From an uncultured marine group I thaumarchaeote (lineage in GTDB: Archaea > Thermoproteota > Nitrososphaeria > Nitrososphaerales > Nitrosopumilaceae), in assembly GCA_902578515.1 (NCBI GenBank), contig CACHDH010000005.1:1-32820 (forward strand): a DNA stretch of 32,820 nucleotides, in the 5' to 3' direction. The translations under genes and the position numbers were made by a program. Position 1 is the stretch's first letter. Each line of letters opens with the position of its first letter. Positions 24,879-29,584 of this stretch are shown piece after piece. Under the pieces are notes generated by a model. It was given only the letters and a program-made list of their open reading frames with translations, searched no databases and had not been told where the DNA came from.

Positions 24879-25506
24879 GTTGAAAACTTCCGCAATTATT
24901 CCAGTCAAAACATTTTCTAAAGCTAAAACAAGGTTAAATTTACAACCGGATTGTAAGGAAGAAATATGTAGTTTAATGTTACAGGAGGTTCTTAGGACTG
25001 TTTCTGATTGTAAAATTGTTAATCAAATAGTACTAGTAACGAAAGATGAAGATGCTTTAAAGATTGGTAAACAATTTAACGCTGTAGGAATTTTCGATGA
25101 TGAATTAGGAGTTAATAACGCAATAAATTTAGCTGACGAATATCTCTCTGACAAAAATTTTGATTGCTCAGTAATATTTCCACAAGACATACCAACAATG
25201 ACATCTACCGACATTGAGACATTGTTAGGTTTTATCAAATCCACAAACTCTGTAATTATTGTTCCCTCAAGACAGTTTAATGGAACTAATGCATTAGTTA
25301 GATGCCCTTCAGGTTTAATGCAGACAAAATATGATTTGGGTAGTTATACACATCAAATAGACGCAGCAAGAACACGAACTAACAATATATCAATTGCACT
25401 GATTCGTAGAATGATGCTTGATATTGATGACGAATCTGATCTTGCATTTATGCTAAAGCAAAATAGCAAACATGGTTTTTGTAATAAAATTGCATCATAC
25501 TTCTAG
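24871..25506 (+). CDS. cofC: 2-phospho-L-lactate guanylyltransferase (CofC)
   Basis: CofC activates phospholactate (or phosphoenolpyruvate, in some lineages) with GTP and hands the product to CofD. The nucleotidyltransferase opening SAIIPVKTFSKAKTRL is characteristic, and the central VIFPQDIPTMTSTDI carries the metal-binding acidic site. VIIVPSRQFNGTNALVRCP and LDIDDESDLAFML are later family motifs. The 211-residue length is normal for archaea. It overlaps cofD by eight bases and converges with the CPBP protease gene, overlapping it by 12 bases. Which acid it uses cannot be read from the sequence. Confidence 0.92.
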   Translation: MHKLKTSAIIPVKTFSKAKTRLNLQPDCKEEICSLMLQEVLRTVSDCKIVNQIVLVTKDEDALKIGKQFNAVGIFDDELGVNNAINLADEYLSDKNFDCSVIFPQDIPTMTSTDIETLLGFIKSTNSVIIVPSRQFNGTNALVRCPSGLMQTKYDLGSYTHQIDAARTRTNNISIALIRRMMLDIDDESDLAFMLKQNSKHGFCNKIASYF

Positions 25507-26484
25507 TTCATGTTTTTTTGAGTATACATAATTTAATGCCAAAACTGCAACTGATATTATTCCAGTAACCACAAGTATTATCTCAACTGTACTCAACAAT
25601 GAATGCTCGAATGCACTGGTAATGGAAATTTGGTTGATGTCAGCCACGATATATCCATACGAATAAACAAAGTAGTTTGTTGCCCAATGAATCAATACAG
25701 CTGGCGCAAGACCATACCTGTAGTATACCCATCCAATTATAATTCCGCTTGCAACTGCCTGCGCTAATTTTCCACTACTCCACGATTGATCTGAAAAAAT
25801 ATGTGCAGCGCCAAAGAGTATTCCCACTATTACAATTACAGTCAATGCCTTCTTTGTGCTTACATTGCGTAGATTTTTCCATGGCCACCATAATGATTTT
25901 CCAAAAAGTTTTAGTGATGACCCATAAGAGTATAGGGCAAAAAGAGGAACACCTATCAGTATAACTCTGAAGCCAATTTCTTCTATAATAGGCGCAAGCG
26001 ATATATCAAAAAATTGTATCAGTTGGTTTGGGGCTTCCGGTTGCTCAATAGGAATACCAAGAAGTTCTTGCACGCCAATTATTCCAGCTGAAACAATCAC
26101 TAAAATCGAGAACCATTTGATTGTGGTAACAATGTAGTTGTCTTGTATTTTGTATTTGCCCTCTGTGATCATTGATTGTAACACAGAAACAAAATTGGTT
26201 TTTGGACCAAAAAGTGCAATTGTAAAAATAATCAAAAACACACACCATATAACAGCGAATCCATCTCCTAGCTCAAATTCCATTGTAGCCTCAAAGCCTA
26301 TACCAGCAAGAAAAATGCTAAGACTATCCATGGGGTATTCATATGTCACATCATCTCCTATTCCCGAATTGAAAACCAAGTACATTCCAGTTGGAAATGA
26401 TATCACCATCAAACAAAAAATCACTGATATCAATGCAGTGTGCGGTATTGCCAACCCTTGCAAAATTTTATTCTGCGTTGACAC
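25495..26484 (-). CDS. CPBP-family intramembrane metalloprotease
   Basis: A 329-residue membrane protein with about eight hydrophobic segments. The CAAX-protease/bacteriocin-processing signature is complete: APIIEEIGFRVILIG (Glu168, Glu169 and Arg173), FGAAHIF (His228) and LIHWATNYF (His266), which form the metal site in the membrane. Such enzymes cleave within or near membranes; the substrate here is unknown and archaeal prenylated CAAX proteins are not assumed. The start is GTG, six bases after the stop of aIF1, so the two are co-transcribed. A short hairpin (ACACT with AGTGT) spans the aIF1 stop and this GTG and might influence its translation. Confidence 0.88.
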   Translation of the reverse strand: MSTQNKILQGLAIPHTALISVIFCLMVISFPTGMYLVFNSGIGDDVTYEYPMDSLSIFLAGIGFEATMEFELGDGFAVIWCVFLIIFTIALFGPKTNFVSVLQSMITEGKYKIQDNYIVTTIKWFSILVIVSAGIIGVQELLGIPIEQPEAPNQLIQFFDISLAPIIEEIGFRVILIGVPLFALYSYGSSLKLFGKSLWWPWKNLRNVSTKKALTVIVIVGILFGAAHIFSDQSWSSGKLAQAVASGIIIGWVYYRYGLAPAVLIHWATNYFVYSYGYIVADINQISITSAFEHSLLSTVEIILVVTGIISVAVLALNYVYSKKHELEV

Positions 26485-26906: not shown

Positions 26907-27233
26907 TTGCCAGATGATTTGACTCAGAAAGCGATTAAAATACTACTTGGCGGCGGAACATTGCTAAGTGAACCGTGTCCATACTGTAAGGGTGTAAGAG
27001 TGATGAAGGATGGTAACGCATTGTGTGTAAATTGTGGTAAAGAGCCAGAAGGGAAGCAGGTAAAAGCACAAAGTGAGAATGAAGATTCAACTTCCACAAT
27101 ACAAACACTTGAGGGTAAACTTGAAAAATTATCTAGTCAACTTGAAAAGGAAAATGAACCAGCAAAACAGCAGGAATTGATAAAATCCATTGATTTGTTA
27201 ATAAATCTAATAGCGAAATTAAAGTCAAATTAA
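26907..27233 (+). CDS. UPF0148 (autoantigen p27-like) zinc-ribbon protein
   Basis: A 108-residue protein of the UPF0148 family, related to the human Sjogren syndrome/scleroderma autoantigen 1. The N-terminal LTQKAIKILLGGGTLLSEPCPYC and VRVMKDGNALCVNCGKEPE give two CXXC knuckles of a zinc ribbon, and the C-terminal half (TLEGKLEKLSSQLEKENEPAKQQELIKSI) is a coiled coil. The role in archaea is not known. The start is TTG: no in-frame ATG lies between it and the upstream region, and a TATA-like box is 25 bases upstream. Sec61-beta follows 39 bases downstream with its own promoter. Confidence 0.85.
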   Translation: MPDDLTQKAIKILLGGGTLLSEPCPYCKGVRVMKDGNALCVNCGKEPEGKQVKAQSENEDSTSTIQTLEGKLEKLSSQLEKENEPAKQQELIKSIDLLINLIAKLKSN

Positions 27234-27272: not shown

Positions 27273-27443
27273 ATGGCAGAAGGTAAAAAGAAAAACGCTC
27301 CACTCCCAGCATCTAGCGCTGGTTTACTAAGATTCTTTGAGGATGAGACCAAAGGAGTTAAGATTGATCCAAAGATTATCGTTTGCATGCCAATCAGCCT
27401 TGTTGCACTATCTTGGGCTATTGATCTTCTTCTGATTCCATAA
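27273..27443 (+). CDS. Preprotein translocase subunit Sec61-beta (SecG-like), not in ORF track
   Basis: A 56-codon gene below the ORF-track cutoff. The product begins MAEGKKKNAPLPASSAGLLR and continues FFEDETKGVKIDPKIIV before one hydrophobic helix (MPISLVALSWAIDLLLIP). This basic start, the SSAGLLRFFEDET segment and a single C-terminal helix are the signature of archaeal Sec61-beta, the small tail-anchored subunit of the SecYE-beta channel. The start is ATG and the size is normal for the family. DUF2070 begins five bases after its stop, so the pair is co-transcribed. Confidence 0.9.
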   Translation: MAEGKKKNAPLPASSAGLLRFFEDETKGVKIDPKIIVCMPISLVALSWAIDLLLIP

Positions 27444-27447
27444 TATC

Positions 27448-29190
27448 ATGTCAGATTCAAACGATATAGAAAATATTCATAGGAGATATACACTTACACT
27501 GATAAATCCATCATCATACTATGTTTCACTGTTTGGTTCTATTGCAATAGCATGCGTAATCTCTTTTCTTTGTTTTAACAACTTCATCACAAATTACGAG
27601 ATAGTTTATCATCTACCAGCTGCTTTAGGTGCACTACTTGCGATCCAATACATAGATTCACGCTTTACACGACACAAGGAATACTCAAAATCACTTCATA
27701 TGTCATTTTTTGGAAACGTGTTGTGGTTGATCACGATAGTAGCTGGAATCATAGGTTCTAGTATGTTATCAATAGAACCAGCTTTGTTTTATGTTGCTCT
27801 TGGCATGTTCATATTTTCTAGCTTTAGGATTGGAATTATGACTACCACACTTGGAATAAGTATGAAAAAAGCATGTGCATTGTGTTTTGTTCAACCGTTA
27901 GCAATGTTTTTTGCCTTAGTTCCGATTAGCATGTGGTCTGTTCTTTACGATGTACAGACATTATCATTTGCAGTTGTATTTCTAGGAGTTGCAGTAGCTT
28001 GGTCATATATTACAAATAGAACTGGATTGCCTATGATCAAAAGCACGCATAAACTATTACAAGCATACTTACAGTCAGTTTCACAAAATGACCCACGTGA
28101 CATGGAGTCAATTATACTTGAAACATCAATGCAGTCAGATATCTCAACGTCACAAATTCGTTTCTCTACAAATGATGACAAGAACGACTTCAGAATGATA
28201 CTACCTGATCTACATCCAGGACCATTCCATCCAGTAGGGGGCAGTAACATTCCATATGAAATTTACAAAAGTATGAATTCATCTGCAATGGTTTTGCATA
28301 GCATCTCTGACCATTCTCTTAATCTTCCATCCCAGCAAGATGTACAGGATTATTTACAGGAATTATCGAAGAGTCGTGTATCCAAAAAGGGCATGACATG
28401 TACGGAACCTGTTACTGCGCAAATAAACAAGGCACATGTTGTAGGAATACGACTTGACGAAACTGCATTACTATTCTTATCATTATCCCCACATGGAATG
28501 GAGGATGTTCCTGTAATCTTAAAGACAGAGATTGAACAAATGGCAAAAAATAGAAATTTCGAGCACGCATTAATTGTAGATACACACAATGCTATGGGCG
28601 GAGAGATATCACAGGAAGATTCTCAAGATTTGTTAACTGCAGCAAAAAACGTACTTGACATTCTTATCACTAAAAGTAACCATCCATTACAATATGGATA
28701 TGCAAACTCGCAATCTATGAATATTCAAACTAGCGACCTTGCGGGTGGCGGTATTGGAATGCTTTGCCTTGCTTTTGAACAAAAAAAATACTTTTTGTGT
28801 TGGGCTGACGCTAACAACATGGAAAACGGTGTACGCGAAGAAGTTATAGCTCATCTAAAAAATCATGGGCATGAACTGGTTGAGATGTTTACATCTGATA
28901 CACATTCAACAACAATGGGAGTAAGAAACAGAAATGGTTACTATGAGCTTGGCAGTGTTACTAAATCAGAAAGATTAGCAGATTGGTGTTTAACTATTGC
29001 AAAGCAAGCAGAAAAAAATATCGCAGAAGGCAAATTTGAAATCTTAGAAAACAACGCAAAGGTAAGAGTAATGGGATCAGGAATATTTGAACATCTTTCC
29101 AAAGCACTTGACAGTTCCCTGAATATGACAAAATGGTTTATGATCCTATGTACTGGTATTTTCTTGATATCTATTTTTCTACGGTTCTAA
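27448..29190 (+). CDS. DUF2070 archaeal membrane protein, possible metalloenzyme
   Basis: A 580-residue archaeal protein I recognise as DUF2070, function unknown. Residues 25-190 hold about six membrane helices, a large soluble domain spans about 200-555, and a last helix (WFMILCTGIFLISIFL) ends the protein. The soluble domain carries acidic/histidine motifs that look like metal ligands: LPDLHPGPFHP (Asp254, His256, His261), VDTHNAMGG (Asp378, His380), WADANNME (Asp453) and TSDTHSTTMG (Asp484, His486). Enzymatic activity is my inference. It starts with ATG five bases after Sec61-beta, which suggests work at the translocon or on membrane proteins. The stop overlaps the convergent Mrr-like gene by 20 bases. 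Confidence 0.82.
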   Translation: MSDSNDIENIHRRYTLTLINPSSYYVSLFGSIAIACVISFLCFNNFITNYEIVYHLPAALGALLAIQYIDSRFTRHKEYSKSLHMSFFGNVLWLITIVAGIIGSSMLSIEPALFYVALGMFIFSSFRIGIMTTTLGISMKKACALCFVQPLAMFFALVPISMWSVLYDVQTLSFAVVFLGVAVAWSYITNRTGLPMIKSTHKLLQAYLQSVSQNDPRDMESIILETSMQSDISTSQIRFSTNDDKNDFRMILPDLHPGPFHPVGGSNIPYEIYKSMNSSAMVLHSISDHSLNLPSQQDVQDYLQELSKSRVSKKGMTCTEPVTAQINKAHVVGIRLDETALLFLSLSPHGMEDVPVILKTEIEQMAKNRNFEHALIVDTHNAMGGEISQEDSQDLLTAAKNVLDILITKSNHPLQYGYANSQSMNIQTSDLAGGGIGMLCLAFEQKKYFLCWADANNMENGVREEVIAHLKNHGHELVEMFTSDTHSTTMGVRNRNGYYELGSVTKSERLADWCLTIAKQAEKNIAEGKFEILENNAKVRVMGSGIFEHLSKALDSSLNMTKWFMILCTGIFLISIFLRF

Positions 29191-29584
29191 TCTCTTCCAA
29201 GTTACCATAAAACTCGTCAATAAATGAAGAGAACTGCATTATTGGTACAATCGGTACTTTGTTAACCAGTTTTACACCTTCCTGATACAGTGTTACAATT
29301 ACTGGCGCAGCCATGACTTCATTTGTTATTGCCACATAATGTTTCACACGGTCTATCTGTTTTAGAACAATATTCTCAAGAGCAGAATTGGTCATTCTCT
29401 TCCAATGTTTACAATCAATAAGTACTGCCGTACCAAGATGTATTCCAACAACATCTATTTCCATTGTAGGCTTCTTCATCCTAAAATTACGTGTAACTTC
29501 AAAATTTTTTGATTCCAAAATTTCAGCTACTAATCCCTCAAAATCTTTCCAATCAACATCACGTGATGCCTCTTCAATTGGCAC
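29171..29584 (-). CDS. Mrr-like restriction-endonuclease-fold protein
   Basis: A PD-(D/E)XK nuclease-fold protein of the Mrr_cat type. DWKDFEGLVAEILESKNFEV is the first helix and strand with Glu16; MEIDVVGIHLGTAVLIDCKHWKRM contains Asp44 and Asp57-Cys-Lys59, the metal and catalytic residues. The rest (IVLKQIDRVKHYVAI and APVIVTLYQEGVKLVNKVPI) fits the core. No methylase or specificity gene is nearby, so it is more likely a repair or housekeeping nuclease than a restriction system. The track start is GTG 29584, but the frame stays open and protein-like for another 15 codons upstream without ATG, GTG or TTG; see findings. Confidence 0.75.
   Translation of the reverse strand: MPIEEASRDVDWKDFEGLVAEILESKNFEVTRNFRMKKPTMEIDVVGIHLGTAVLIDCKHWKRMTNSALENIVLKQIDRVKHYVAITNEVMAAPVIVTLYQEGVKLVNKVPIVPIMQFSSFIDEFYGNLEEIRTVEK

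Follow-up and report, generated by a model that had tools for sequence, protein, structure and literature searches.

The locus described here lies in a 32,820-nucleotide stretch of marine group I thaumarchaeal DNA (the window), drawn from a partial genome assembly of 690,691 bases in 58 contigs (58% complete), and the window's genes include CofD, CofC, SUI1, Sec61-beta and DUF2070 (Table 1). Gene content and nearest relatives both indicate Nitrososphaerales, the ammonia-oxidising order of archaea. The predicted DUF2070 product matches the PF09843 profile from residue 12 to residue 574 (E 2e-125; 419.7 bits against a cut-off of 30), making it a full-length member of its family, and its ATG at base 27448 is separated by a four-base gap from the Sec61-beta stop codon, which ends at 27443. 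Internal TAG codons that seemed to interrupt many same-genus DUF2070 genes were dismissed, the alignment having overrun the terminal stops; the reading frames are intact.

Three further genes recur around the pair. An Rce1-like CAAX protease, which makes two predicted membrane metalloenzymes at this locus, is found near DUF2070 in 42 Nitrososphaerales-side loci; a zinc-ribbon protein of the Auto_anti-p27/SSSCA1 family, adjoining Sec61-beta upstream, is kept in 41; and a homologue of the Mrr/NERD-like nuclease frame, which in the window overlaps the DUF2070 3' end in antisense by about 20 bases, stands at that end in 47 of 60.

Table 1. The DUF2070 locus: genes, protein segments and conserved codons, by position in the window
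Feature	Position	Strand	Basis
Rce1-like CAAX protease	25495..26484	-	
Zinc-ribbon protein (Auto_anti-p27/SSSCA1 family)	26907..27233	+	
Sec61-beta, 56 aa, directly upstream of DUF2070	27273..27443	+	PF03911 E 4.3e-13; NF002318 above cut-off
DUF2070 protein, 580 aa	27448..29190	+	PF09843 profile match
Six-helix membrane domain, residues 23-191	27514..28020	+	AlphaFold helices, hydropathy, positive-inside bias
Soluble domain, first part, residues 226-312 (H256, H289)	28123..28383	+	Aligns to ceramidase His204 segment
Codon H256	28213..28215	+	86/86; ceramidase His204 position
Codon H289	28312..28314	+	86/86
Soluble domain, middle part, residues 313-403 (D353, H380, N381)	28384..28656	+	Conservation
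Codon D353, candidate acidic ligand	28504..28506	+	86/86
Soluble domain, last part, residues 404-546 (D454, N456, N457, D484, H486)	28657..29085	+	Aligns to ceramidase His97 segment
Codons D484-T485-H486	28897..28905	+	D484 and H486 86/86; H486 at ceramidase His97 position
C-terminal helix 546-579, second half hydrophobic (seventh membrane helix)	29083..29184	+	AlphaFold, hydropathy
Mrr/NERD-like nuclease frame	29171..29584	-	

Distribution and gene neighbourhood

DUF2070 was detected in 234 of the 250 Thermoproteota genomes with a completeness of 85% or more and in 49 of the 79 Asgard genomes (~60%; 47 of them score above the cut-off), several of which have extra copies; three Asgard genomes (G310, G316 and G320) carry three to four each, including a divergent paralogue type (E ~1e-50). 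Among 14 control genomes it was detected only in Haloferax volcanii and Sulfolobus acidocaldarius, and the controls Methanocaldococcus jannaschii and Methanosarcina acetivorans yielded Sec61-beta with no DUF2070 found. Within Thermoproteota, the five genomes of group f27 and three of group f31 likewise have Sec61-beta without DUF2070, and complete genomes are among those in both groups, marking natural losses. Since it is missing from some lineages that bear Sec61-beta, DUF2070 is a core but not an indispensable archaeal protein. One single-contig genome (G135, 99% complete) has the whole segment from SUI1 through Sec61-beta and DUF2070 to a downstream SBP gene absent or masked; a specific co-loss of Sec61-beta and DUF2070 was rejected there, as SUI1 and SBP on either side are gone too. 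In the library searched, no paper describes DUF2070, the term appearing in two unrelated papers only; a survey from 2015 of membrane proteins conserved in archaea (PMC5898192) yielded no mention of Sec61, ceramidase or COG3356 and, in the sections consulted, no treatment of DUF2070.

With at least one locus per family-level group and roughly 1-3 kb examined around each, Sec61-beta proved to be linked to DUF2070 in 27 of the 38 groups sampled. The eleven groups without linkage are f19, f25, f33, f34, f36, f37, f41, f44, f50, f52 and f59, contig breaks perhaps mattering for f44 and f50; Sulfolobales-like lineages lack the linkage, and a tblastn search of plasmids found no euryarchaeal DUF2070 neighbourhood. 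Where the linkage exists, its form varies. In Nitrososphaerales the two genes lie on the same strand, four to tens of bases apart, at every locus with intact upstream sequence. The usual Bathyarchaeia order is Sec61-beta (+), a small gene (-) with weak similarity to Sm proteins, and DUF2070 (+), with ~500-600 bases between the pair and with a DNA polymerase D-like gene and MazG also nearby on mixed strands. The two genes converge in two groups and diverge in others. Four Asgard loci are linked: two have Sec61-beta ~0.7 kb upstream, separated from DUF2070 in one case by a ZPR1-like gene (-), and two have it on the other strand, downstream. In the majority of Asgard loci there is no Sec61-beta within 1.5 kb of DUF2070.

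In genomes of 1.5 Mb, chance would bring a given gene this near in well under 1% of cases; the neighbourhood is thus old, and either selected or slowly decaying. The sequence-only reading had proposed that DUF2070 is made together with a translocon subunit and had asked whether the adjacency recurs in distant archaea. Recurrence is borne out across the 27 groups and the four Asgard loci, yet the arrangement is operon-like in only part of that range and absent from several lineages. Joint production is plausible for Nitrososphaerales and a few other groups, but not for Bathyarchaeia, where an opposite-strand gene intervenes, nor for the convergent groups; only a minority of groups, then, could plausibly co-transcribe the pair.

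Fossilised genome order could leave the same trace, with DUF2070 a lipid enzyme unrelated to protein export, and we put this at somewhat under even odds; it is compatible with the enzymatic part of the explanation we favour. The mixed company of the Bathyarchaeia pair is what such a fossil might look like, as are the unlinked groups, the many unlinked Asgard loci and the occurrence of Sec61-beta without DUF2070. Against it, the pair stays within ~1.1 kb in most linked groups although the rest of the neighbourhood is entirely different in Nitrososphaerales, in Bathyarchaeia and in Asgard archaea, and the narrow gap holds in all Nitrososphaerales examined. The conserved proximity suggests that DUF2070 may be functionally coupled to the translocon.

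Architecture and invariant residues

AlphaFold2 was run with 80 relatives on the full-length protein (pLDDT 84, pTM 0.84) and separately on the soluble domain (pLDDT 91, pTM 0.90). The models place six N-terminal helices (residues 23-43, 51-73, 76-107, 112-135, 139-157 and 169-191) before a 350-residue sheet-and-helix domain, which is followed by a C-terminal membrane helix. Mean Lys/Arg counts are high at the N-terminus (2.7), in the loops between helices 2 and 3 (3.8) and 4 and 5 (2.1) and in the segment after helix 6 (4.0), as against 0.4-0.7 in the other loops; by the positive-inside rule, this bias, together with the six helices preceding the domain, leads us to predict that the soluble domain lies on the cytosolic side of the membrane.

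Conservation was assessed first in 48 Thermoproteota proteins sharing under 60% identity, then in 86 proteins from Thermoproteota and Asgard archaea, most of them less than 60% identical. Eight residues are invariant in the larger alignment (H256, G258, H289, D353, N456, N457, D484 and H486), and E220, H380 (82/86), N381, T482 and Y498 are nearly so. Some members carry H380Q or other changes; four proteins (L066, L073, L077 and L078) have Gln at position 380 and keep all the other invariant residues.

These counts sharpen the sequence-only reading, which had picked out the motifs DLHPGPFHP (254-262), VDTHN (377-381), WADANN (452-457) and SDTHS (483-487) along with H289 and H349, all of them present in the sequence, and had asked whether six Asp/His residues are invariant. 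Three of the six are (H256, D484 and H486), and H380 is close behind, with D378 kept in 74 of 86 sequences; D254, however, is found in just 14. Of the two His residues it had singled out as likely metal ligands, H289 is fully conserved and H349 is variable (11/86). Both D254 and H349 were discarded as metal ligands, as they vary among homologues. Free variation, which the sequence-only reading had named as evidence against itself, thus holds for these two residues and clearly not for the rest. D353, N456, N457 and G258 had gone unmentioned.

A circular permutant of neutral ceramidase

Sequence searches of the PDB, with either the protein or the family profile, gave chance matches only. Foldseek searches with the models led to neutral ceramidases: 2zws (E 1.9e-4) and 4wgk (2.5e-4) head the matches to the full-length model, and 2zws (7.3e-6), 4wgk (2.0e-5) and 2zxc (2.4e-5), all at probability 1.00, those to the soluble domain alone. 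They are the sole high-probability PDB matches in both searches, the next for the soluble domain being a methionine adenosyltransferase (4ws9; E 5.2e-4, probability 0.18). TM-scores against the ceramidases are low (0.36-0.46 in a sequence-order alignment), as would be expected if a permutation leaves only part of the fold alignable in that order.

Profile searches gave fainter traces of the same relationship. The ceramidase profile PF04734 does not match the window protein at E<=1; its positions 48-149 match the C-terminal part of one Asgard DUF2070 gene below threshold (E 0.0026), and positions 422-526 of PF09843 match the N-terminal part of ceramidase-like proteins (E 0.0093, 0.013 and 0.13). 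A local ceramidase HMM gave weak matches, mostly to DUF2070 proteins, one of which (L135) is hit weakly in both its pieces, in swapped order. Separately, three Asgard proteins of 650-670 aa (L216, L217 and L219) carry a PF04734 ceramidase-like domain together with a PIG-L GlcNAc-PI de-N-acetylase domain, a fusion that hints at chemistry on N-acyl glycolipids.

For profile-profile comparison with hhalign we built a ceramidase profile from 22 PF04734 proteins of Asgard, haloarchaeal and bacterial origin; one member of this set matches 4wgk at E 4e-21 and 2zws at E 8e-16. Residues 404-548 of DUF2070 align to the N-terminal THTH segment of ceramidase with a score of 62.9 (maximum of 100 shuffles, 21.5), and residues 226-312 to the following segment, which bears the second zinc His, with a score of 33.3 (maximum of 100 shuffles, 21.9); the THTH-type segment thus comes first in ceramidase and last in DUF2070. 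Rejoining the parts in ceramidase order gave scores of 86-90 at 97% probability, in one colinear alignment of 204-216 columns, against 65.8 in native order, and the permuted-order score held for every cut tried between 330 and 412. Because hhalign E-values cover single comparisons, we relied on controls, which stayed far below: at most 23 for 100 column shuffles, at most 26.2 for 28 unrelated families, 15.9 for the reversed profile and 11.8 for the membrane domain. The computation shows the DUF2070 soluble domain to be a circular permutant, and a distant homologue, of neutral ceramidase. Permutation within the ceramidase fold is also why ordinary sequence searches failed to place the family. 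Neither the ceramidase link nor the permutation had figured in the sequence-only reading.

Convergence on a common sheet-and-helix unit with His/Asp loops might instead account for the likeness. Identity is only ~10-14%, and there is weak similarity between the middle and last segments of DUF2070, and likewise between the ends of ceramidase, so that repeated units may inflate the scores. Convergence would sit poorly with the much lower shuffle and family controls, with the cross-matching of two independent Pfam models and with the alignment of zinc His to zinc His in both segments, and we regard it as very improbable. PF09843 is, we believe, equivalent to COG3356, which newer COG releases presumably name a predicted neutral ceramidase superfamily lipid hydrolase; that name, which did not turn up in the literature searched, suggests that curators had already recognised the superfamily link, if perhaps not the permuted order.

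The permuted homology bears directly on a putative metal site. We take the zinc ligands of Pseudomonas aeruginosa ceramidase to be His97, His204, Glu411 and Tyr448, whose numbering coincides exactly with THTH, H, (P)AE and Y, motifs that are conserved in the alignment of 2zws. H486 aligns to His97 (posterior 0.76) and H256 to His204 (0.98), which would make them two ligands of a single zinc; D454 aligns to a conserved Asp that precedes THTH (0.997). H289 sits by the ceramidase G[DN]xS motif, whose Ser is not kept at the aligned column, 291 (L, Q, F and others). The middle segment, with D353, H380 and N381, fits the Glu411/Tyr448 segment in order, with a similarity at or barely above that of shuffled controls; an equation of D353/H380 with Glu411/Tyr448 is suggestive, its score not clearly exceeding controls. 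With similarity near control level, D353 is a third ligand that we infer, a candidate substitute for Glu411/Tyr448.

Proposed activity and relation to known systems

The earlier suggestion of a membrane-bound metalloenzyme is well supported by the invariant His/Asp set, by a zinc amidase as the sole confident fold match in the PDB and by the two zinc-ligand positions that are kept. We consider DUF2070, with a probability of roughly 0.7, to be a membrane-embedded hydrolase that needs a metal, probably zinc, and whose catalytic domain, facing the cytosol, is a permuted relative of neutral ceramidase; a membrane-anchored amidase or lipid hydrolase dependent on metal is its most likely identity. 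The further idea of a hydrolase or modifying enzyme acting on membrane proteins or lipids was right as to the kind of enzyme, a ceramidase relative with a membrane anchor, whereas the activity, the substrate and the translocon link are matters that we infer. Zinc would be held by H486 and H256, its coordination completed by D353 and/or D484/H289, and the bound metal would activate water to cleave an amide or ester bond of the substrate, a lipid or a lipid-linked molecule that may reach the site along the six-helix membrane domain. No archaeon is known to make ceramide, and the substrate must therefore differ from it. At lower confidence, the enzyme may act at the membrane as proteins are inserted or afterwards, a role proposed because its gene has stayed close to Sec61-beta.

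Several features count against this explanation: the ceramidase Ser is not conserved, Glu411 and Tyr448 have no clear counterpart, TM-scores are low, and some members depart from the conserved set, as in H380Q. The first of these, together with the Sec61-beta neighbourhood in 27 groups, would suit a non-enzymatic, metal-binding Sec61/SecYE partner, an old hydrolase fold turned membrane-protein chaperone or assembly factor. We find such a pseudoenzyme quite improbable: eight invariant positions, three His and two Asp among them, over two phyla exceed what a scaffold needs, and several lineages have Sec61-beta without DUF2070 while others have DUF2070 unlinked. A bolder version of the enzymatic explanation, in which a permuted ceramidase-type zinc amidase, fused to six helices and facing the cytosol beside Sec61, removes acyl or lipid moieties from membrane proteins as they are made or from lipids surrounding the channel, would add a class of enzyme to membrane-protein biogenesis that is not known in bacteria or eukaryotes; we rate it as unlikely.

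The fold, the two mapped zinc ligands and the list of invariant residues make the proposed enzymatic role of this uncharacterised core membrane protein of archaea open to test. Should the Sec61-beta link be functional, an undescribed enzymatic step in the handling of archaeal membrane proteins or lipids would follow, in lineages that include those nearest to eukaryotes.

Compared with other DUF2070 (PF09843) proteins, the window protein is an ordinary member, with no difference to report. With accessory proteins of the Sec61/SecYEG translocon the family shares a conserved Sec61-beta gene neighbourhood; its own linkage is incomplete, and its physical association with the translocon is putative. 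The alkaline ceramidases (ACER/CREST) are membrane-embedded zinc amidases, as we propose for DUF2070, but their active site lies within membrane helices and their fold is unrelated to that of neutral ceramidase (PMC6303388), whereas the conserved residues of DUF2070 sit in a soluble domain. The closest parallel is the neutral/alkaline non-lysosomal ceramidase (PF04734; 2zws, 2zxc, 4wgk): DUF2070 departs from it in its permuted segments, in lacking a clear match to Glu411/Tyr448 and a conserved Ser, in its added six-helix membrane domain and in its predicted cytosolic location, and shares with it the fold, the two zinc-ligand His residues, the preceding Asp (D454) and two contiguous homologous segments.
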